Positions 8,036 through 17,511 of a stretch of 21,556 nt of DNA are shown piece after piece. Both the position numbers and the translations under genes were made by a program. Position 1 is the first letter of the stretch. Every line of letters begins with the position of its first letter. The stretch is from a virus: the IMG/VR virus record IMGVR_UViG_3300008107_000932, positions 1 through 21,556 of that record, one strand, 5' to 3'. The notes beneath the pieces were generated by a model that searched no databases, was not told the DNA's origin, and saw only the letters and a list, made by a program, of their open reading frames with translations.

Positions 8036-9041
8036 GCTGCTTGAGGTACTCGCGGAGTTCGTTGGCCTTGGACGCTGCAACTGTCCTTGATTCGCGAATC
8101 GCGGACAGCGACTGCCGAAACGCATCGTAGGAACGCTTCGCCACTGCCACGTCGGAGTCGGGATACGCCGGGAACGTGGTCGGGGACACGTCGATCAGCG
8201 AGTCCACGCGCTTGATCGTCCGCACGCTGCGGCCTTCCTCCATGCTCCAATCGTCACCGCCCGGCGCGACTTGGAACGCGAAGGAACTGCCCTTCACGAT
8301 TCCGGCGCGAATGTTCGCGGCGATGTCGCGGCCATAGGTCGTGTCCGGCACGGGAAACTCGTACCGCAGGCCCACGTCATCGACTGAGAGCTTGAGCGTG
8401 TCGGGATAGCGGGCCAGCGGGAAGTTGGCGTCGTGGTTCCACAGCGCGCGGGTCTGAAGCGGCTTCTTGCGGCCGCGCCGCTCAGAAACAAGCGAGAACG
8501 CACCGGGGTCAAGCCGCTCCACGAAGTCGCCGAGGTCGAGCGACAGCACGCCGAACTTCGCCGCGTAGCCGACGATCCACTCGCGGGACTCGTCGCTGCC
8601 TTCCTCGCTCCGCGTCTCGACCGCGAGCAGCGGGGTGTCGGACTCGATCTCGTCAAGGATCAGCGAACGTCGCTCGATGTTCATCGCCATGCTCCTGTCG
8701 TTGTTGTCTGCCGCGTCGATCTGCTTGGTCAGTTTGCTCGCCCACGCCTGTCCCGGATCGCCGCCCCACAAGGCCCACGCAATCCGGCCAGCACTCGGGA
8801 AGCCGTCCTCGCCGGGACTCCATCCCTGTCCCTGCTTGTCCACTTCGTGGCGGGCGAAGTAACTCGCCATCCGCTTCGCCGTGTCTGGCGAAATGTTCGT
8901 GCCGTTGGAAAGGTCGCGGGCGCGGGCCACGCCGACCGCCGTGCCGCCACGATTGAACTCGTCGCGCCACGCCAGCCCCTTCGCGGCCTCGTCGCGAACA
9001 CCGGCGGGCGGCGAGAAGTCGATGTGGTCATACTTCGCCAT
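8025..9041 (-). CDS. Prohead protease (S78-type) with an extra N-terminal domain
   Basis: 338 aa. Residues about 155-300 carry the HK97 prohead protease pattern: EWIVGYAAKFGVLS, ERLDPGAF, RALWNHD (candidate catalytic His203), 'Tlklsvdd.GLryE', 'YGRDIAANIRAGIVKGSSFAF' region (candidate catalytic Ser252/253) and a C-terminal helix. It processes the capsid delta domain during maturation. Residues 1-105 form a separate domain with 'FSPPAGVRDEAAKGL', 'NRGGTAVGVARARDL' and 'PSAGRIAWALWGGDPG', a module seen in phage proteins but not part of the protease fold. An AGGAG sits 7 bases before an internal ATG at 8684 (Met120), so a protease-only product may also be made. The ATG at 9041 follows AAGAAGG and overlaps the portal stop. 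Confidence 0.9.
   Translation of the reverse strand: MAKYDHIDFSPPAGVRDEAAKGLAWRDEFNRGGTAVGVARARDLSNGTNISPDTAKRMASYFARHEVDKQGQGWSPGEDGFPSAGRIAWALWGGDPGQAWASKLTKQIDAADNNDRSMAMNIERRSLILDEIESDTPLLAVETRSEEGSDESREWIVGYAAKFGVLSLDLGDFVERLDPGAFSLVSERRGRKKPLQTRALWNHDANFPLARYPDTLKLSVDDVGLRYEFPVPDTTYGRDIAANIRAGIVKGSSFAFQVAPGGDDWSMEEGRSVRTIKRVDSLIDVSPTTFPAYPDSDVAVAKRSYDAFRQSLSAIRESRTVAASKANELREYLKQHGR
8691..8696 (-). promoter_or_regulatory. Internal ribosome binding site in the protease gene
   Basis: The minus strand reads AGGAGC ATG GCG ATG AAC. The AGGAG is spaced 7 bases from ATG 8684 (Met120 of the long protein), exactly at the boundary between the N-terminal domain and the protease domain. This could permit a second, shorter protease. 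A chance match within GC-rich coding sequence is possible. Confidence 0.45.
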
Positions 9042-10896
9042 CTGTCGCCTTCTTCTTGCGGCTCCGCTTCACCGGCTTGTCGGTGATCGTCTGCGGCGAG
9101 TCATCGACCCACACGTCCACGCTGATGCCTGCGGCCTCGGCGGCGTCGGCCTTGAGCGTGTCGGTGCCGACGAGCAGGACTTGCGAGAACGCGGAAGCGT
9201 AGTCACCGAGCGTGTCGAGCACGGTCTGGCGATCCGCCTCGGGACGGCGGGAAATCATCACGACCGTATTGCCATCCGCGACCGCCTGCGTGGCGAACTC
9301 GCCCCACATCTGCGGGTCGGCGGCGAACGTACGGTCGAAGTCCATGCTGATCGTCATGGCCCGCGACTCGGGCAGCGACCGACCGAGCGGTGCGGCTGGG
9401 GCAGGAGCGGCCTGCGGAGGCTGCACGCTGCCTGCGGGATTGCCAGCCGACACCCCCGCAAGGATCGCCGTGACTTGAGCATCGGAGATGCTCGGGAACG
9501 ACGCGGCGATGAGGGCCGCAGCGCCTTCCTTGGTAAGCAAACCTGCGGGAACTTGAGAAAGAATCGCGATAAGTCCGGTGATCTGCCCACCGTTGAGCGA
9601 CACGTCGGCGACCTGCGGTGCCTCGGGCTGCGCCGGTGCCTCGCTGGTCGGAACCGAGTCGGCAGCCGCAGCGGCCAGCCCGCCTTCGACCGCCTGCCCG
9701 TCGATGCCGCTGTCTGGCTGCTGCTGGGACAGCACGTCGGTCGCGGTCGGCTGCTCGCCGAGCGTTCCCATGTTGAGCGGGCGATAGCGAACGTCGCCGC
9801 CTTCCACTGGGTCGAGGTTCTCGGTCGCTCTAATGTCGTTCGTGCTGACCACGCCGATGTCCCACATGGCCCGATAGAACGCCGAGCGGCTGGCGGCATC
9901 GCCACGCAGCAGCCCACGCACGTCGAACTCGACCAGATAGCGATCGTCATCCGGCAGCAAGTCCCTCATGAACGCCGACTCAAAGCGGCGCAGCCACGGG
10001 ATGATGCAGTGCGTTACGAACGCGATGTCGGAGTCGGGGCTGTCAGCCGCGATGCCAAGCCGCGAGCCGGGGATGCGGAACAGCCTCGCGATCTCTTCCA
10101 ACTGGTAGCGGCGCAGTTCGATGAACTGGCTGTCGGTGTTGCTGGCCTGCGGAATGTCGTAGGGCTTCAGCCCGCCCGTGAGGACCGCCGTGTTGTGGCT
10201 GTTGCCGACGCCGCCATGACGCCGGTCCCACTGCGAGCGGAGTTGCTCGCGGGCCTCGGCGTTGAGTTGACCCTCGGTCGAAAGAACAAACCCGGGGCGG
10301 GCACCGGCCGCAAAAAAGCGTGCCCCGTGCAACTCGCAAGCCCGGGCTAGTGCGATGGCATCCTTGCATTCGTCCACGATGGACATGCCGTTCACGCCGT
10401 CATCGGACGGGCCGCGAATCTGGAGAATCTTCTGCTCGTTGTACGGCGTCTCTTGTCCGTTTTGCTCGCGATACTTGTAGCGGAGGCTTCCGTTCTCCAG
10501 CCGCTCGACCTTCATGCGGCTCGGATGCAGCGGCACAATCTGCCCGGCCTTGAGTTCCGAGAACGCGTCGCCCCACAAGCCGACGTGGAACACGGCCTGC
10601 TCCCGCCACTCAAACGAAGTTTGCCAGCCGTTGGGCTGCGAGTGGAGTTGCTTGTAGAGCGGCAGTTCGCGGGCCTGCCGCTTGCCGCCTCCTGCCGTTC
10701 GCTCAAGCACGTGCAGCGGCAGGCTCGCGACCGTTTCGGCGATCACGCGAAGGCAGGAAAACACCGCCGCAACGGTGTGGGCGTTGCTGGAGTCAATCCG
10801 CACGCCAGCGGAGGAACGCGACGAAGAATCCTCGTCAAACATTCGCTCCTCGCCGGGGAGCCAGAGGATTCGGTGTTCGTGGTTTTGGGCGATCAT
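9028..10896 (-). CDS. Portal protein (HK97 family) with C-terminal HAD-like domain
   Basis: 622 aa from ATG 10896, which overlaps the TerL stop (ATGA); an in-frame extension to 11064 is basic antisense-like sequence. The body has standard portal features: SSNAHTVAAVFSCLRVIAET, 'aslPlhvler', 'lyklLhsqPN.wqt..ew', 'lhPsrm.verlengslryky', 'giArlfriPgsrLGi' and a 'd.lnG.qi..li.ils.v.aGlltke.a..li.asFP' segment usually found at portal C-termini. After a proline/alanine linker, residues 514 to about 605 form a further domain: ISMDFDRTF (D519, D521; HAD motif I), VVMISRRPE (motif II) and VDVWVDDSP (D598, D599; acidic motif). The portal forms the DNA channel; the fused HAD-like phosphohydrolase domain is unusual. 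Confidence 0.93.
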   Translation of the reverse strand: MIAQNHEHRILWLPGEERMFDEDSSSRSSAGVRIDSSNAHTVAAVFSCLRVIAETVASLPLHVLERTAGGGKRQARELPLYKQLHSQPNGWQTSFEWREQAVFHVGLWGDAFSELKAGQIVPLHPSRMKVERLENGSLRYKYREQNGQETPYNEQKILQIRGPSDDGVNGMSIVDECKDAIALARACELHGARFFAAGARPGFVLSTEGQLNAEAREQLRSQWDRRHGGVGNSHNTAVLTGGLKPYDIPQASNTDSQFIELRRYQLEEIARLFRIPGSRLGIAADSPDSDIAFVTHCIIPWLRRFESAFMRDLLPDDDRYLVEFDVRGLLRGDAASRSAFYRAMWDIGVVSTNDIRATENLDPVEGGDVRYRPLNMGTLGEQPTATDVLSQQQPDSGIDGQAVEGGLAAAAADSVPTSEAPAQPEAPQVADVSLNGGQITGLIAILSQVPAGLLTKEGAAALIAASFPSISDAQVTAILAGVSAGNPAGSVQPPQAAPAPAAPLGRSLPESRAMTISMDFDRTFAADPQMWGEFATQAVADGNTVVMISRRPEADRQTVLDTLGDYASAFSQVLLVGTDTLKADAAEAAGISVDVWVDDSPQTITDKPVKRSRKKKATDGEV

Positions 10897-12500
10897 ATGA
10901 AGAAGATTTCCGGCTCGCTGCTGGGCTTCTGCTCGTTGCCGATCCAGCACCCGATGCCTTGGCACAACGCCACGATGCCGTCGATGCGCTCCGTACTCTT
11001 GGCCTTGCTCGGGTAAATGTTTCCGTAGCGGTCTTCGTGGACGGCGACGTTGCCAGCGCACCACGACAGGACGGGATGCCCCGCGTGGCGGATTTTGGCG
11101 TTAGTGATCAGGTTCTCCAGAGCCTTGGCAGGCGCGCTCATGGCGCGACCGCCCTGTGGGTATCCGACCACTTCCACCCCGTCCCCTTGCAGCATGTTGG
11201 CGATCATCTGGCCGTTGAACTTGAGGTCCACCGCCAGTTGCCGCACCCGGTACTGCTCGCAGATGGCCGCGATATCGCGGTGCAGCACGGTGTAGTCGGT
11301 CACGTTGCCGTCAGTAACCTTGATGAATCCGTCGCGTATCCAGCCGAGGTAGTCCACCTTGTCGCGGTTCGTCCGCTCCACGGCGTTCGCCTCGGGAATC
11401 CAGAAGAACGGAAGCACGTCGATGCTGCCGTCTTCGGGGTCTGGGCAGATCAGAACGAGGGCCGTGAGGTCGTAGGTGGTGGCGAGGTCGAGGCCCGCGT
11501 AAACGGGCCGGTCGCCGAAGTCGCGGAGCGGCAGCGATCCCTGCTGCCACGTTTCCGGGGACAGCCAGCGAACGTCAGAAGTGGTCCACGTGTTGAGCCG
11601 ATAGCGGAGAAACGAGTTGAGTTTCGTCGGCGACTGCTCGGCTTCCTTCACGTCGAGGGCGAAGTCGGCAGGCTTGATCGTCACGCCCCACGACGGATTT
11701 GCCTGCGGCCACACGTCGGCGTCCTTCCAATCGGCTCCTTCTTCCATCTCGTAGATGCAGGAGAAGAACGTGGGGTCGTGCTTCCAGTTCGCCGCGACCG
11801 CCTTGGCGTACTGGTACTGCTCGTAGCAGATCCCCTTCCGGTCGTAGCCTGCCGTCGTGATCGAGACGAGGAGTGGCTGCTCGCGTGCCGCGCCGCCGTA
11901 GCGGAGGGCATCCCACAGACGGCGGTCCTTTTGGGCGTGCAACTCATCGAACAGGAGGCCGTGAATATTCAAGCCTTCCGCACGGAACGCGTCGGCGGAA
12001 AGGACGCGGTAGAACGACGCCTCCTTGCGGTAGGCGATCGTGCGGCGGGAGTCGATGACCTCCAGCACCTGTGAGAGTTGCGGTGAGGCCCGCACCATGC
12101 TCGCCGCCTCGCGGTAGACCACCGAGGCCTGCTCACGATCCGCAGCCGCGCCGTAGACTTCGGCCCCGTTCTCGCCGTCCATGACGAGCAGATACAGGCC
12201 GATGCCCGCGAGTAGGGTCGATTTGCCTTGCTTCTTGGCAGTCGAGATGTAAGCGACGCGGAATCGTCGCGTGTCATCGTCCAGCCGCTTCCAGCCGAAC
12301 AACTCGCCGATCATCACAGTCTGCCACTCAAGCAGCGCAAACGGCTTGCCAGCGTGCTTGCCCTTGCTGTGCCGCAGCCAGCCCTCGAAAAACTCGACGG
12401 CGTGCTTCGCGGCCTCAGGGTCGAAGTAGTAGTCAAGCCCCTGACGGACGGCGTCGCTTCGCAGCGTAGGCGGCAACCGGGTCTGTATCTTCGCTGCCAT
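10893..12500 (-). CDS. terL: Terminase large subunit
   Basis: 535 aa. The ATPase domain has Walker A STAKKQGKST (residues 86-95) and Walker B LLFDE (182-186). A downstream TTAGYD coupling motif follows. The nuclease domain begins near YAGLDLATTYDLTA, with Asp338 as first catalytic acid; a later ERIDGIVALCQ segment fits the final acidic residue. Length and layout match the Terminase_1 family. It cuts concatemers and drives DNA into the prohead through the portal. The start (ATG 12500) lies inside the end of terS, a 68-base overlap, longer than the other junctions; its stop overlaps the portal start. Confidence 0.96.
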   Translation of the reverse strand: MAAKIQTRLPPTLRSDAVRQGLDYYFDPEAAKHAVEFFEGWLRHSKGKHAGKPFALLEWQTVMIGELFGWKRLDDDTRRFRVAYISTAKKQGKSTLLAGIGLYLLVMDGENGAEVYGAAADREQASVVYREAASMVRASPQLSQVLEVIDSRRTIAYRKEASFYRVLSADAFRAEGLNIHGLLFDELHAQKDRRLWDALRYGGAAREQPLLVSITTAGYDRKGICYEQYQYAKAVAANWKHDPTFFSCIYEMEEGADWKDADVWPQANPSWGVTIKPADFALDVKEAEQSPTKLNSFLRYRLNTWTTSDVRWLSPETWQQGSLPLRDFGDRPVYAGLDLATTYDLTALVLICPDPEDGSIDVLPFFWIPEANAVERTNRDKVDYLGWIRDGFIKVTDGNVTDYTVLHRDIAAICEQYRVRQLAVDLKFNGQMIANMLQGDGVEVVGYPQGGRAMSAPAKALENLITNAKIRHAGHPVLSWCAGNVAVHEDRYGNIYPSKAKSTERIDGIVALCQGIGCWIGNEQKPSSEPEIFFI

Positions 12501-12963
12501 GCGTTGTGGAGACCTGTGACCTACTGCTCGGGTTCAGTCCGAAGTCCTGCTGCATCCGGCGGATGTCGCTGCGCAGCGACCGCTCATCGACGGCCCATGA
12601 GTGCGGCTGCGTCCACTTAATCCGCATCTTGCCGTCGGTGCGGTTCGGGTCTGGCTCCATCATCACGTTGTCGCGGCCAAACTGGCGGCACTTTGACTTC
12701 GCTTCCAGCCACTTAGACCATGTGTGGCAATAGATCGCCCACGCGTCGATGTCGGCCTCGGTGAACACCCGCATCCGCCGTAGCATCGGCACGGTCGCGT
12801 GCCACTTCTTGACCGCGACTGGATCGTCTTCGATCGACTCTGGCGGATCGAGCTTCTCGACCAACTCAGGCGTCGGCTCGTTCGTGGGCAGCGCGTCCTT
12901 CGACGGGTTGCCGCGAATGTATTTGAGGATCGACGGTTCGGGTGCGGGGCCGCGTTTGCCCAT
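12433..12963 (-). CDS. terS: Terminase small subunit (P27/Terminase_4 type)
   Basis: 176 aa from ATG 12963, which shares one base with the FolE stop (TGATG). It opens MGKRGPAPEPSILKYIRGNP, the recognisable 'kRGp.p.P..lk...GnPgk' start of P27-family small terminases, followed by helical sequence with 'a...Wh..vp.L.....lt..D...l..yc'. These proteins recognise the packaging start site and recruit TerL. A same-frame extension to 13026 lies wholly inside folE and was not used. Its coupling to folE ties the modification genes to the packaging genes. Confidence 0.92.
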   Translation of the reverse strand: MGKRGPAPEPSILKYIRGNPSKDALPTNEPTPELVEKLDPPESIEDDPVAVKKWHATVPMLRRMRVFTEADIDAWAIYCHTWSKWLEAKSKCRQFGRDNVMMEPDPNRTDGKMRIKWTQPHSWAVDERSLRSDIRRMQQDFGLNPSSRSQVSTTHGSEDTDPVAAYAAKRRRPSGA

Positions 12964-13520
12964 CACATCAACTCCAGCAGTTCGCTTCGTGCCATAGGGT
13001 CGTCCTTCATGCAACCTAGCAAACAACTGGTCACCATTTCAGCGTCTGGCTGTCGCACGCCTCGGCATCCCATGCACGAGTGGTGAGCCTTCACAATCAC
13101 GCCAACGCCCAAAGGACGAAGATGATCCATCAAGGCGTTAGCAATCTGATTCGTCATTCGCTCTTGAACTTGAGGGCGTTTGCCGAATAGTTCAACGAGG
13201 CGGGGAATCTTAGACAGCCCGATCACGCGACCGTCTGGCACGTAGCCGACTGCCGCAGTTCCTGTGAATGGCAAGAGGTGGTGCTCGCACATACTGGAAA
13301 ACCGGATGCCGCGTACGACCACCATCTGATCGCTCGTCTCGTTGAACACCGTCCCAAGCACTTCTGCTGGTTGCTGGTGCAGACCGGCTGTCATTTCACG
13401 GAACGCTTTCACGACTCGCTTTGGCGTGTCTCGAAGCCCTTCACGGGACGGGTCTTCGCCGATCCATTCCAGCAGACGGACGACTGCTGCCTGTGCGTGA
13501 AGGTGATCGTGTTCGCTCAT
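12963..13520 (-). CDS. folE: GTP cyclohydrolase I
   Basis: 185 aa from ATG 13520 (ATGA overlap with queE). It converts GTP to 7,8-dihydroneopterin triphosphate, the first step of 7-deazaguanine (and folate) synthesis. Zinc ligands are visible: MCEHHLLPF (Cys78, His81) and HHSCMGCRGV (Cys149). The segments 'REGLRDTPKRVVKAF', 'GLSKIPRLVELFGKRPQVQERMT' and 'plGVgVivkA.H.CM' follow the family closely. Length (185 aa) equals compact type-I enzymes. With queD, queE and queC downstream in the pathway and adjacent here, the role is deazapurine supply, not folate. Confidence 0.96.
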   Translation of the reverse strand: MSEHDHLHAQAAVVRLLEWIGEDPSREGLRDTPKRVVKAFREMTAGLHQQPAEVLGTVFNETSDQMVVVRGIRFSSMCEHHLLPFTGTAAVGYVPDGRVIGLSKIPRLVELFGKRPQVQERMTNQIANALMDHLRPLGVGVIVKAHHSCMGCRGVRQPDAEMVTSCLLGCMKDDPMARSELLELM

Positions 13521-14155
13521 CGGACACTCCATGCCTTGTGCTGCTGCATCGACAGCCGCCATTCGGGGTTCTCCTTGATGAGCCGCAGGCACCACTCGAC
13601 CGCCCTCGGGTCGAGAGTCCATCCGTCAAAAGCCGGGCTGATGAGTTGATGCGTCGCCTTGCACGTTGGCTTCGGCACGGCCTGCCCATGGCCGCGAACG
13701 TACTTAACCTCGTCGGCAGTGAGTTGCCTCACCGCATGTTCTGCGACCTTCGGACTGACCGTGATCCAATCAAGACCGAGGCCGGAAACGTCCTTGCTTC
13801 CATTAGTCTCGATGGCACAAAGAAACCCGGAGGCATTAATAGCATTGACCAGTTCGCGGTCCACTTGCAGCGCAGGCTCGCCGCCGCTGAACACGACCCA
13901 CGCCTTGCGCTCCTCAAACCATTCGTCTGGCTTTCCGACGAGTAGGCGAGCCTCAGAGATGATCTCTTCGGCGGTCATTTTCCTGCCCGACGCGAACTCG
14001 GTGTCACAGTCGAAGCCCCCCGGCGAGTCGTCGGCGGCTTCCATGCGGCAGCGAAGATTGCAACCTGTGAAGCGGACGAACACGCTCATCTGGCCTGCCC
14101 GCATCCCTTCGCCTTGCGGCGACCAGAAGATTTCGTTGACCGTGTAGTGCTTCAT
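13517..14155 (-). CDS. queE: 7-carboxy-7-deazaguanine synthase (radical SAM)
   Basis: 212 aa from ATG 14155, preferred over an upstream start at 14299 because of the ATGA overlap with queD and the family-like MKHYTVNEIFWSPQGEGMRA opening. QueE turns 6-carboxytetrahydropterin into CDG. The SAM-binding GGEP (91-94) and 'IETNGS' are present. The cluster cysteines are spaced C32-X3-C36-X13-C50, an expanded loop compared with the usual CX3CX2C; QueE enzymes are known to vary here. The N-terminal QGEG, the 'sVFVRFTGCNLRC' strand and the 'CDTEF' element all fit. Confidence 0.95.
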   Translation of the reverse strand: MKHYTVNEIFWSPQGEGMRAGQMSVFVRFTGCNLRCRMEAADDSPGGFDCDTEFASGRKMTAEEIISEARLLVGKPDEWFEERKAWVVFSGGEPALQVDRELVNAINASGFLCAIETNGSKDVSGLGLDWITVSPKVAEHAVRQLTADEVKYVRGHGQAVPKPTCKATHQLISPAFDGWTLDPRAVEWCLRLIKENPEWRLSMQQHKAWSVR

Positions 14156-14547
14156 GGTTTCACCGTGACAATGGAGGTGTCGGTTTCTTGCAGGGCGAGT
14201 TCCGTGACGTTCAGCCCAGTTGCTCGCAGTTCGGCAAGCAGATGGTCGGCCATATTTTCGGCCGACGTTGGGAACGGCACCTCGTACACGCGGCAGCACG
14301 CACCCGAGGCGAGCAGTGTGTCGCGAGCAGGGTCGGCAGCGTGCAGGAGCAGCGAGTGGTCAAGCCTGTCAAGCAGCGGCTTGACGCGGCTCTCGATCTC
14401 CTCAAAAAGCATAGTGATGCTGCCGTTGCGTGGTTCCTCAACTGTGACAGCGATGCCATAGCGATGCCCGTGAATCGACGCACACTTGCCGCCAATCTCT
14501 TCGTTGCGATGTGCTGCGTAGAACTTGAAGTGCTTCGTGATCGTCAT
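14152..14547 (-). CDS. queD: 6-carboxy-5,6,7,8-tetrahydropterin synthase
   Basis: 131 aa. It converts dihydroneopterin triphosphate to 6-carboxytetrahydropterin. Zinc ligands His13 (FYAAHR), His26 and His28 (IHGHRYG), the catalytic Cys22 (GKCASIHGH), Asp63-His64 (LDHS) and the PTSAEN motif are all present. Length is normal for QueD. The presence of the Cys and the pairing with queE and queC favour QueD over the related eukaryotic-type PTPS. Four-base ATGA overlaps bind it to queC upstream and queE downstream. Confidence 0.95.
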   Translation of the reverse strand: MTITKHFKFYAAHRNEEIGGKCASIHGHRYGIAVTVEEPRNGSITMLFEEIESRVKPLLDRLDHSLLLHAADPARDTLLASGACCRVYEVPFPTSAENMADHLLAELRATGLNVTELALQETDTSIVTVKP

Positions 14548-15200
14548 GCAGCGGCCAGCAGCGGGTCTGGCACTCCAGCGAACTCAAACGCCTCTGCACG
14601 CTCCGTGCAGGAGCCACATCTGCCACACGGGCGGTCACCACCCACGTAGCACGTCCACGTTTTTTCATATGGCACCCGCAACTCGACGCCACGCTTGCAG
14701 ATGTCGCCCTTGGTCATGTCGATGTAGGGGGCGTGAAGGGAGAGCGTGTGCCAATCGCACAGGCCTAACGCCTTGCCCATCGCTTCCACAAACTCGGGGC
14801 GACAGTCTGGGTAGATCGTGTGGTCGCCCGCGTGGGCTCCATAGGCCAGCCGGTCGGCCTTGCGGGCGATGGCGACGGCACCTGCGGCGGCCAGCATGAA
14901 CATATTGCGATTAGGCACCACGGTGAGTTTCATGCTCGGCTCGTCGTACTTGCCGAACGGCACCGGCACGTTCGGGTCGCTCTGGCTGCTGCCGGTCAAG
15001 AAGCCAGATAGGCTCGACAGATCGAGAACGTCGAACCGCACGCCGAGGCCGCGGCACAGGGTTTCAGCGTAAGTGAGTTCCTTGCCGTGCCGCTGCTTGT
15101 AGTTAACGCCGATGGCTTCGACCGAATCACCGTGGGCGATGAGGTCGTAAAGCAGGGTGGCGGAATCCATGCCACCGGACAGGATCAAGACGGTTTTCAT
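14544..15200 (-). CDS. queC: 7-cyano-7-deazaguanine (preQ0) synthase
   Basis: 218 aa. It converts CDG to preQ0 using ATP and ammonia. The PP-loop SGGMDS (residues 8-13), 'VNYKQRHGKEL', 'VPNRNM' (95-100), 'GDHTIYPDCRPEF' and the zinc site C184 with PCGRCGSC (C192, C195, C198) are intact. No glutamine amidotransferase domain is fused, so it is plain QueC, not the Gat-QueC that makes G+ in some phages. The stop overlaps queD and the start overlaps queF by 4 bases. Confidence 0.96.
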   Translation of the reverse strand: MKTVLILSGGMDSATLLYDLIAHGDSVEAIGVNYKQRHGKELTYAETLCRGLGVRFDVLDLSSLSGFLTGSSQSDPNVPVPFGKYDEPSMKLTVVPNRNMFMLAAAGAVAIARKADRLAYGAHAGDHTIYPDCRPEFVEAMGKALGLCDWHTLSLHAPYIDMTKGDICKRGVELRVPYEKTWTCYVGGDRPCGRCGSCTERAEAFEFAGVPDPLLAAA

Positions 15201-15583
15201 GAACGAGGCTCCTTGGGGGCGCAGGTTGCTTTTGCGACAATCGCCACGCCGCCCCGTGGCTTTTGATTCACAGTAGCCGTTGCGTCAACTTGCAGAGCGT
15301 CAGCGCAGTCTTGCGCGATCTTGTCTGCGAACTGCTCGCAGAACATTCCCGAGTTTCGAAACGACTGCACGTAGAGTTTGAACGTCTTACTTTCGATGCA
15401 GAGTTGCCCCGGTTCGTATTCGACCGTGATGGTGTACCAATCTGGTTGCCCCGTGACAGGACACATCGCGCAGCATTCGTCGCTGACCAAGCAAACTCGC
15501 TTGAGTCCGTGCGGCGAAGCAAAAGTTTCGAGACCATCAAACTGAGCGCGTGCCGTACCGAGTGCTTTCAAGTGCTCTGCCAT
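15197..15583 (-). CDS. queF: QueF-type preQ0 reductase, unimodular, with a His-to-Cys change
   Basis: 128 aa, the short unimodular form. The nucleophile and proton donor are present in CPVTGQPD (Cys41, Asp48). The NADPH-binding motif is present as ESKTFKLY (64-71), followed by SFRN, and the C-terminal KPRGG turn is kept. In the usual SFRNHGDFHE element this protein reads SFRNSGMFCE, so the normally conserved His of the H-E pair is Cys82 while Glu83 is kept. Because the NADPH motif is intact, reduction of preQ0 to preQ1 is the more likely activity. A changed reaction (archaeal QueF-L acts as an amidinotransferase but lacks the NADPH motif) is possible. It overlaps dpdA by 16 bases. Confidence 0.88.
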   Translation of the reverse strand: MAEHLKALGTARAQFDGLETFASPHGLKRVCLVSDECCAMCPVTGQPDWYTITVEYEPGQLCIESKTFKLYVQSFRNSGMFCEQFADKIAQDCADALQVDATATVNQKPRGGVAIVAKATCAPKEPRS

Positions 15584-16476
15584 AAATCAGCCTCCATAGC
15601 GCGGTCGCAGCGACCGTTTGCGTTCATCGCGAGCCGAACGTCGGACTTCGCGTTCCAACCGAGTTTTTCAAATAGTGCGCCCCACTTGGCGCGACACCTT
15701 GCCTCAAGTTCCAGATACCAGAGAACTTCGCAGCGCAGATCTTGCTTGCTTCCACGCACGCTCATCTTCCCGAACGTCTTCCAGTTTCCAAACGCGCACG
15801 GTCCCATTTCCCACGACGAAGCATCACACGAATGAAACGGAAATCGCAGCAACATGTCCTCTGCCACCCAGCCAAACGAATGGAACTTCTTGGGCCAAGC
15901 CTTTGCGAAGCACTGGTCGTAGAACTTCATGCTGTCTTTGATGGACTCGCCAAAGCGACACGAAAGACCGACCTTGTCCCAGCCAGCCGCGTATTCCTTC
16001 AAAATGCCCCAGTCGTCTCCAATATGAAAAACAGGCATGGCGTCAACGCCAGCCTGTTTCATCTTCTTTGCGTTTGCGAGTGATCCGGTTGCGGAGCCGA
16101 TCACGTCGAGCGCGATGATTTCGGAAAGTGACGAGTCTTTTGCTTTGATGGTTTTGCAGAACTGGATGTATTCAGAGAGATTGATTTCCGTTCCGCTGTT
16201 CCACGCGCTGAACGCTCCCGAGTCGAGCATCCAATCCCGGTAAGCGTATTGCTGCTGCTTCTTGATGAACTGCTCGATGTAGACATACGAGACAAGAATG
16301 GCGGGCAGCTTTTCTGGCTCAAGTCCCTTTCCGTTTCTTGCTCCAGCAAGCGTGTTGGTACCTTGTGCGCCTGGCCTGTGGGCAAGACGCACCTGCGGGG
16401 CCAATGCTTTTTCAAGAGCCTTGGGAGGCCCACCCATCGCCAGTCGGATAGACGGCACACTCACGCAGCACCCCAT
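15568..16476 (-). CDS. dpdA: DpdA-like DNA guanine transglycosylase (TGT superfamily)
   Basis: 302 aa from ATG 16476, preceded by GAAGAAA; a longer frame to 16563 lies inside the GNAT gene. The motif MLDSGAFSAW (Asp85) matches the DSGGFQ substrate-binding element of tRNA-guanine transglycosylases. LDVIGS (Asp124) and VFHIGDDWG follow the barrel, and FGWVAEDMLLRFPFHSCDASSW places Asp218 where the nucleophilic aspartate is expected. No CxCxxC zinc site as in tRNA enzymes is visible. Phage DpdA proteins exchange guanine in DNA for 7-deazaguanines; the adjacent queF, queC, queD, queE and folE would supply the base. A tRNA-directed role is the alternative. The DNA is noticeably AT-richer than the packaging genes. 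Confidence 0.8.
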   Translation of the reverse strand: MGCCVSVPSIRLAMGGPPKALEKALAPQVRLAHRPGAQGTNTLAGARNGKGLEPEKLPAILVSYVYIEQFIKKQQQYAYRDWMLDSGAFSAWNSGTEINLSEYIQFCKTIKAKDSSLSEIIALDVIGSATGSLANAKKMKQAGVDAMPVFHIGDDWGILKEYAAGWDKVGLSCRFGESIKDSMKFYDQCFAKAWPKKFHSFGWVAEDMLLRFPFHSCDASSWEMGPCAFGNWKTFGKMSVRGSKQDLRCEVLWYLELEARCRAKWGALFEKLGWNAKSDVRLAMNANGRCDRAMEADLWQST

Positions 16477-16907
16477 ATATTTTTCTTCATCGCAAGCACG
16501 TATCGTTTCTGCGATTTCTCTTTGGCGACTACTGCAAAGCCTCTTGATTTGTAGAAGCCACAAGCAGGAGTGCCCTCCACGACTTTCAGCGATATAGCGT
16601 GCCAGTGCCGCCGCTTTGAGAGGTCAATCAAGCACTTCATGAGCAGGGAGCCTATTCCTTTGCCTCGCTTGCTTTCGTCGACCGCATACTTGTAGATGGT
16701 GACAGTCCTGTCTTTTCTTGCATGGAACTGAAGGAAACCATCTACCTGTCCAGTAGCAGTGTCTTTCGCGACTAAAACTTCTTCGTTCTTTGCTGACTCA
16801 ATCCACCCGCCTCGCGGCAAGAAGCCAAGTGAGTCGACGTTCTTCCGCGCGATAGCTGAAATGGCGTCGATGTCTGACAGCGTCGCGAGCGATACCTTAT
16901 GCGTCAT
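16461..16907 (-). CDS. GNAT-family acyltransferase in the DNA-modification cluster
   Basis: 148 aa from ATG 16907, overlapping the ParB-like stop by 11 bases; the longer frame to 17114 is inside that gene. A typical GNAT: N-terminal 'ATLSDIDAISAIARKN', central strands, the acetyl-CoA pyrophosphate-binding RGKGIG (81-86) and a C-terminal GFYKSRGF (117-124). The segment 'LGFLPRGGWIESAKNEEVLVA' is found in a GNAT group I associate with phages. Its 3' end overlaps dpdA by 16 bases, so the two should be co-translated. The substrate is unknown. Plausible targets are the amine of preQ1 or, by analogy with the GNAT-fold Mom protein of phage Mu, adenine in DNA. A protein or antibiotic substrate is not excluded. 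Confidence 0.82.
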   Translation of the reverse strand: MTHKVSLATLSDIDAISAIARKNVDSLGFLPRGGWIESAKNEEVLVAKDTATGQVDGFLQFHARKDRTVTIYKYAVDESKRGKGIGSLLMKCLIDLSKRRHWHAISLKVVEGTPACGFYKSRGFAVVAKEKSQKRYVLAMKKNIWGAA

Positions 16908-17511
16908 GTGTTGAATGTTCTTCGCAGAGCAGCACAAGAAACTCAGCAATGTCTGTTTCTTCTCCAGCGGCGGCGACGACTGCTTCCCACTGTTCGGCAG
17001 AGAACCGAACAACGTGCCCGCTATCTTGTGAGCCTTGCTCGTCTTGTTCTCTGACGTGCGGTTTACTTCCGTCGTCGGCAGGCGGCGACCATTCGGCTGA
17101 AAGGAGCGGATCACGGATATAGTCTGGCCAGACCAGCGCAGCGAGATTGTCTTGCTGGTCTGCTAGTTGTTTGAATAGTGACGCGAGTGCTTCGCTGTCT
17201 TGATCTGCCATCGCCGCGAGCGGGTCGAGCGTGGCCAGAATCTTGTCGGCCTCGGCCTCGTTCACATCGAGGACCAGCACCGGCACGTCGCCGTCGCCAA
17301 GCGTTTCGGCACGCAGGTGACCGTCGATCAGCATGAGTGAGCCGTCGGGCAACTCGCGGGCGAGGCAGGCGTCGGCGAGGCCGACCTCGGCCAGCACGCC
17401 CCGGAGGGCGTCCTGCTGGGCCTTGGGGTGCGTCCGCCAGTTCTTCGGATTGGGTCTGAGGTCGCTCGCAGGGACCATACGGAGCGATTTGACGCGGTTT
17501 CGGATGTTCAT
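16897..17511 (-). CDS. ParB/Srx-like domain protein
   Basis: 204 aa. The N-terminal 100 residues are a ParB-like domain: 'MVPASDLRPNPKNWRTHPKAQ' and LIDGHLRAE (61-69), with 'VPVLVLDVNEAEADKILATLDPLAAMADQD' following, a pattern common to phage ParB-like proteins often fused to DNA methylases. No methylase domain follows; the C-terminal part has 'VRFSAEQWEAVVAAA' and 'AEFLVLLCEEH'. There is no HTH, so chromosome-partition function is unlikely. In bacterial Dpd islands DpdA works with DpdB, which as I recall is also a ParB-like ATPase; this gene may fill that place. No clear ribosome site precedes ATG 17511. Confidence 0.8.
   Translation of the reverse strand: MNIRNRVKSLRMVPASDLRPNPKNWRTHPKAQQDALRGVLAEVGLADACLARELPDGSLMLIDGHLRAETLGDGDVPVLVLDVNEAEADKILATLDPLAAMADQDSEALASLFKQLADQQDNLAALVWPDYIRDPLLSAEWSPPADDGSKPHVREQDEQGSQDSGHVVRFSAEQWEAVVAAAGEETDIAEFLVLLCEEHSTHDA

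Follow-up and report, generated by a model that had tools for sequence, protein, structure and literature searches.

The virus fragment IMGVR_UViG_3300008107_000932 of IMG/VR, analysed here over its whole length of 21,556 bases (hereafter the window), carries on its minus strand a run of overlapping genes that is probably a phage DNA-modification cassette. Genes for a ParB-like protein, a GNAT-family acetyltransferase, DpdA, QueF, QueC, QueD, QueE and FolE follow each other in this order and continue into terS, terL and portal, which makes the cassette the leading part of the packaging operon. FolE, QueD, QueE and QueC would convert GTP to preQ0, and QueF would convert free preQ0 to preQ1. After replication, DpdA would swap guanine in phage DNA for this base, the ParB-like protein being its probable partner on the DNA side, and the modified base would camouflage the DNA from restriction. 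The block that decides the base, dpdA with the base-finishing gene, would be exchanged as a unit on a common queD-queE-folE-terS-terL backbone. With block exchange included, this is in our judgement the best explanation of the whole.

The combination of DpdA with FolE, QueD, QueE, QueC and QueF belongs to group one of Hutinet 2019. The enzyme chemistry is already known from the precedent of Streptococcus phage Dp-1, which has the same enzymes and carries dPreQ1 in its DNA (PMC6884629), and the layout beside the terminase is present in public records (Knocker, Bipper, CRB2). New here are the terminase linkage in 27 of 30 cassettes, over at least three terminase families, dpdA with queF as an exchangeable block, and a GNAT gene in a cassette of the preQ1 type. 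The proposal of the first-pass annotation that the phage makes a 7-deazaguanine and inserts it into its DNA has good support, from family membership and from Dp-1; from these we infer enzyme activity, the identity of the base and the modification of virion DNA.

Organization of the cassette

Window proteins were assigned to families by scans against Pfam, PHROG and NCBIfam. The first gene of the cassette encodes a ParB-like protein of 204 amino acids (16897..17511, minus strand, as for all genes below; phrog_620, 1.7e-12), and the second a GNAT-family acetyltransferase of 148 amino acids (16461..16907; PF00583, 2.7e-13), a candidate tailoring enzyme. They are followed by dpdA (15568..16464; phrog_887, 6.6e-34), for a predicted DNA guanine transglycosylase of the phage (9g, DpdA1) type, and by queF, of the preQ0 reductase family (15197..15583; PF14489, 5e-16; TIGR03139, 7e-23). 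The four enzymes of the preQ0 pathway are all present and intact. These are QueC, preQ0 synthase (14544..15200; PF06508, 2e-57; TIGR00364, above cut-off), with the SGGMDS motif and C184/C192/C195/C198; QueD, 6-carboxytetrahydropterin synthase (14152..14547; PF01242, 3e-22; TIGR03367, 4e-18), with C22/H26/H28; QueE, radical SAM 7-carboxy-7-deazaguanine synthase (13517..14155; TIGR04508, 5e-43; phrog_2076, 6e-28); and FolE, GTP cyclohydrolase I (12963..13520; PF01227, 1e-72; TIGR00063, above cut-off). The matches of QueD to TIGR03367 and of QueE to TIGR04508 lie below the NCBIfam equivalog cut-offs.

The scans thus confirm the run from the gene for the TGT-like protein through queF, queC, queD, queE and folE into the terminase and portal genes that had been described from the letters alone. 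All junctions given there are correct: ATGA overlaps join queF/queC, queC/queD, queD/queE, queE/folE and terL/portal, and at folE/terS the start of terS lies inside the folE stop (TGATG). The run begins further upstream than had been reported, with the GNAT and ParB-like genes that were missed. GNAT overlaps both parB and dpdA, head to tail, and dpdA overlaps queF by 16 bases. For dpdA, GTG at 16464, which overlaps the stop of GNAT as GTGA, is a more likely start than the ATG at 16476 chosen before. Six open, overlapping genes that match their families are not there by chance, and the order from ParB to FolE is repeated on two separately assembled contigs, L003 and L004 (relatives are designated by L numbers).

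Scans of the window for promoters and terminators gave no signal above shuffled background. Together with the gene overlaps, this fits the earlier proposal that the modification enzymes are made from one message with terminase and portal. Nothing above background, and no preQ1 riboswitch, was found in an Rfam scan of the window. GC content is 0.51 in GNAT and 0.54 in dpdA, and 0.63 and 0.65 in terL and portal.

The transglycosylase belongs to the phage DpdA family

By sequence, the predicted transglycosylase belongs with the phage DpdAs of the 9g (DpdA1) type. Besides phrog_887 it matches a second phage TGT family, phrog_7068 (1.5e-18), while no Pfam or NCBIfam model matched it, and tblastn retrieved 225 phage records. 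Counting residues from ATG 16476, the two predicted catalytic aspartates, D85 (DSGA) and D218 (DASSW), are invariant in 11 aligned sequences; the latter is the candidate nucleophile Asp218 of the first-pass annotation, which had also noted the DSGAF motif. H199 (HSFG) aligns with H196 (HGFG) of 9g, a conserved histidine absent from DpdA2 (PMC6884629). The CxCxxC zinc motif, CDCYTC in E. coli TGT, is absent from the window protein and from five other phage DpdAs.

Enterobacteria phage 9g and CAjan, both with DpdA1, share DSGA, His196 and the FolE/QueD/QueE/QueC pathway with the window, and deletion of dpdA in CAjan abolishes DNA modification and protection (PMC6884629). Phage 9g differs in having a Gat-QueC that makes G+ and no annotated QueF, and in the position of its cassette beside DNA polymerase.

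Structural comparison, which had been suggested as a check, recovered the TGT fold. VIA matches of the model, which is of modest confidence (pLDDT 65), were dominated by TGT entries with Z of about 11.0-11.7, values like those of unrelated TIM barrels (12.3 and 11.2). In Foldseek no TGT was among the top 50 matches of the same model, the best being other TIM barrels; the sequence had no relevant match in PDB, and its hhalign alignment to E. coli TGT was limited to the DSG(A/G)F stretch. DpdA and TGT have a common fold, so that structural likeness to a tRNA enzyme, part of what the first-pass annotation had named as refuting, does not discriminate between the two.

The steps from FolE to QueF are also the pathway of queuosine precursors, and the genes could accordingly raise queuosine in host tRNA instead of modifying phage DNA. 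We consider this very improbable, given a transglycosylase that falls in phage DpdA families, not in TGT, and is without the TGT zinc motif. Furthermore, neither queA nor queG was noticed in the open reading frames of the record, in which no profile search for either was made.

Linkage of the cassette to terminase genes

Downstream of folE, the run continues with terS, the terminase small subunit (12433..12963; phrog_83, 2.5e-22), and terL, the large subunit (10893..12500; PF03354, 3e-29; PF20441, 7e-42). A putative portal gene follows (9028..10896), recognised by its open frame, its junction with terL and homologous open reading frames after terL in relatives.

To collect relatives, IMG/VR was scanned with DpdA, QueF, QueC and QueE and bacterial genomes with DpdA, yielding about 30 distinct cassettes which, having been found by similarity, are not independent. 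Within 1 kb downstream of folE, terL is present in 27 of the 30 cassettes that have folE, the window counted. The exceptions are L012, where the distance is 3.8 kb, L028, where the contig ends, and L048, where terL was not recognised. At least three unrelated terminase Pfam types are involved: PF03354/PF20441 as in the window, gpA (L003, L044) and Terminase_6 (L010, L047, L051). The linkage between cassette and terminase has outlasted terminase exchange.

Among described phages, Bipper has its cassette beside the terminase like the window, and in the cluster B mycobacteriophage CRB2 que genes accompany a DpdA-like ORF2, a suggested DpdB (ParB) ORF1 and terminase ORF7-8 (PMC6392294). Mycobacteriophage Knocker (MZ150786) has the order ParB, QueF, DpdA, gp4, QueC, QueD, QueE, FolE, a terS-like P-loop gene, terminase and portal. 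It differs from the window in a DpdA of only about 26% identity, in queF preceding dpdA, in a CxxCxxCC protein (gp4) in place of GNAT, and in its host group. The terS-like gene of Knocker (L005:5581-6147), annotated as ‘adenylate kinase’, matches the terminase small subunit family phrog_800 (5e-31).

The first-pass annotation read this position as a sign that modification may be timed just before packaging. Coupling to packaging is not required for modification, because in several other DpdA phages (9g, Dp-1, R26L, Pan1 and phi38:2) the neighbours of the cassette are replication genes, and in Finch and Mufasa8 it is near neither replication nor terminase genes. With such variable placement, and with HNH and ParB genes located beside the terminase as well, the chances are about even that the position is a hotspot for accessory genes where the late operon begins, and not a matter of timing. 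A hotspot accounts less readily for a linkage that holds across at least three terminase families and in the distant Bipper, Knocker and (at 3.8 kb) L012.

QueF and the predicted base

The first-pass annotation considered all catalytic residues intact. In QueF (B. subtilis numbers; residue criteria and the NADPH motif were taken from PMC5372742) this holds for Cys55, Asp62, Glu97 and Glu78, kept as C41, D48, E83 and E64. It does not hold for His96, which is Cys82, nor for the backdoor Cys99, which is Phe85; the change of His96 to Cys and the loss of Cys99 are traits of the window clade. The NADPH motif ESKTFKLY has Thr at the S/A position of the consensus E(S/L)K(S/A)hK(L/Y)(Y/F/W) and otherwise fits. 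The score against TIGR03139 (80.6 bits) is just under the equivalog cut-off of 86.9 bits.

As judged from these residues, preQ1 is the most likely product, although not a certain one. The enzyme might instead be weak or form another product, for example G+, through the amidine transfer known from archaeal QueF-L, and the DNA would then carry dPreQ0 or dG+. The loss of His96 and Cys99 points in this direction, and Cys at the His96 position also occurs in the QueFs of Knocker and Mufasa8; moreover, QueF and QueF-L are hard to distinguish by sequence (Hutinet 2019). However, four catalytic residues and nearly the whole NADPH motif are retained, the profile match is 1e-42 to B. subtilis QueF (4f8b) and just 6e-8 to QueF-L, and B. 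subtilis QueF without Cys99 retains 74-80% of its activity (PMC5372742). A product other than preQ1 is on this evidence unlikely.

Dp-1 resembles the window in its QueF, QueC, QueD, QueE, FolE and DpdA, and differs in QueF His96, in a QueT transporter and in a cassette that lies beside replication genes and is annotated with neither ParB nor GNAT.

Most relatives are without queF and should therefore end at preQ0; five cassettes, the window included, have it. L003/L004, L009, L010 and L011 carry the same cassette as the window, with QueC 85-93% identical and DpdA in the same QueF-associated clade. In contrast to the window, GNAT is missing from L009, L010 and L011, the terminases of L003 and L010 are unrelated to that of the window, and in L009 and L010 a phosphoribosyltransferase (PRTase)-like domain is fused to FolE. 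L011 (VGYP01000125.1) is a contig binned in a Planctomycetota metagenome-assembled genome, and its other proteins resemble those of window 18-21 kb, a weak hint of a Planctomycetota host.

Exchange of dpdA and queF as a block

Phylogenies were built from 14 cassettes, with QueF left out, and constrained monophyly was assessed by the approximately unbiased (AU) test. The five cassettes with QueF form a single DpdA clade (support 100/100) and are scattered on the ParB, QueC, QueD, QueE, FolE and TerL trees. Their monophyly is rejected for ParB (p 6e-4), QueC (4e-8), QueD (8e-12), QueE (5e-6) and TerL (7e-6), and also for FolE, where the AU value is extreme and not to be taken literally.

Pairwise comparisons place the breakpoints at gene borders. 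Over a stretch of 4,991 bp that begins with queC and runs through terL, L010, with QueF, and L026, without it, share 96.1% identity, while for dpdA no match was detected. The alignment of L009 with L022 reaches the parB stop, breaks off and picks up where queC starts, and between the window and L022 the match resumes exactly at the window queC start, 15200. Starting at queD, L022 and L035 have 91.4% identity across 4,793 bp, and their dpdA blocks differ. These results support dpdA and queF as one exchangeable block among related phages. In the simplest reading, DpdA would be matched to the free base that it inserts, in which case QueF would act before insertion. In TGT the base-binding loop includes Leu231, Ala232 and Glu235 (PMC3660597). 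The DpdA residues in this loop vary with cassette chemistry (GLS-CRFGE, ALG-GAVGYRK, ALA-GLRRPxK), a correlation confined to the clade of the window, as the CRFGE loop is not shared by the other QueF phages Dp-1, Knocker and Mufasa8.

Several observations weigh against the explanation as a whole. The source record is a fragment of 21.6 kb, and the His96 that the window QueF lacks is kept in Dp-1 and HVTV-1, two phages that have QueF homologues and in whose DNA dPreQ1 was measured (PMC6884629). Well-supported independent exchange pairs number three, too few for a sign test, and the window and L003 group on the ParB tree too. Finally, dpdA and queF are adjacent and the dpdA types too divergent to recombine internally, so that joint exchange could be mechanical.

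In this last case, recombination in the conserved parB and queC would move everything between them, with queF hitchhiking and no specificity being matched. The breakpoints do fall within conserved neighbouring genes or at their borders, the dpdA types are unalignable at the DNA level, and much of the pattern is forced by adjacency. On the other hand, hitchhiking need not make dpdA far more divergent than its flanks between cassettes with and without QueF; among the 14 cassettes the DpdA type of those with QueF occurs in none of those without it, nor the reverse; and the base-loop residues of DpdA differ by chemistry. Hitchhiking is, on balance, less likely than not.

ParB-like protein and GNAT

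A ParB-like gene lies beside or near dpdA in Knocker, Bipper, Finch, Mufasa8, phi38:2, L012 and most IMG/VR relatives. The authors of CRB2 proposed it (ORF1) as DpdB (PMC6392294), and the ParB-like protein of the window, which has no Pfam match up to E 0.1, is a candidate DpdB-like partner of DpdA, probably acting on the DNA side.

The GNAT assignment is above the PF00583 cut-off, and the protein model (pLDDT 76) matches GNAT structures in Foldseek with E of 1e-9 to 1e-10. A GNAT gene in the slot between parB and dpdA is present only in the window and L003/L004, all with QueF, and in none of the relatives without QueF. Among phage records only two distant homologues were found, one of them from an uncultured 735-kb phage. 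The enzyme might transfer an acyl group to the primary amine of preQ1, either on the free base or once it is in DNA; the result would be an N-acetyl-type dPreQ1, a DNA base not described so far. We hold this specific outcome to be rather doubtful; acylation by GNAT is plausible, with few cases that perhaps represent one evolutionary event. Methyl and formyl derivatives of dPreQ1, and their enzymes, are said to be known from the work of Cui in 2023.

In the cassette beside dpdA, three unrelated phages with QueF have a shared CxxCxxCC protein: Knocker (gp4, L005:2544-3188), Pan1 (Pan1_55, L019:9722-10372) and phi38:2 (gp53, L018:9404-10057), the other two being 51% and 40% identical to Pan1_55. 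The position looks as if it were a slot for amine-tailoring enzymes.

Joint exchange of GNAT and DpdA, suggested by identities, was not upheld, as a five-row tree was without conflict, the window and L004 being grouped both on DpdA and on ParB+QueF+QueC. The inclusion of QueF in the latter set partly explains the absence of conflict. On the 14-cassette trees, a clade of the window and L003 is weakly rejected by QueC (p 0.044) and not rejected by QueE and FolE.

Variation in related cassettes

FolE of the window and L003 lacks the N-terminal PRTase-like domain that most relatives have. From weak Pfam/NCBIfam matches of the xanthine PRTase type, it was observed in L009:3857-4192 and L010:4161-4500 and in the FolE open reading frames of L022-L024, L026, L027, L031, L034-L036, L038, L039, L050 and L051. 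As DpdA releases guanine, the fused domain could recycle it to GMP for FolE.

In QueE of the window (13517-14155) the cysteines follow the pattern C32-x3-C36-x13-C50, which departs from the CX3CX2C motif usual in radical SAM enzymes, and the same was seen in L004 and L009. In L025:1576-1974 a DUF6884/YaaA-like protein is located between queC and queD.

No queC was recognised in L032-L036, L042 and L044, which instead have phrog_17812, a small PTPS-like protein, a transporter of the Vut_1/YhhQ type, or both (scanned for in some). The PTPS-like protein follows dpdA in the queC-less cassettes L032:1469-1798, L042:4777-5106 and L047:1358-1678, and is perhaps a tailoring enzyme of 7-carboxy-7-deazaguanine. 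Two of these cassettes without recognised queC contain a tandem dpdA pair (L036:669-2419, L044:3090-4840), possibly encoding a heterodimer.

Implications

Hutinet 2019 left open the substrate of phage QueF, which could be free preQ0 or the dPreQ0 of DNA that is already modified. With naturally occurring pairs like L010 and L026, the order of its action becomes directly testable. If the acylation by GNAT is true, the tailored base would be an additional DNA modification. If DpdA type matches base type, these phages would change the chemistry of their DNA by swapping about 1.1 to 1.7 kb, comparable to the swaps of restriction specificity in bacteria.

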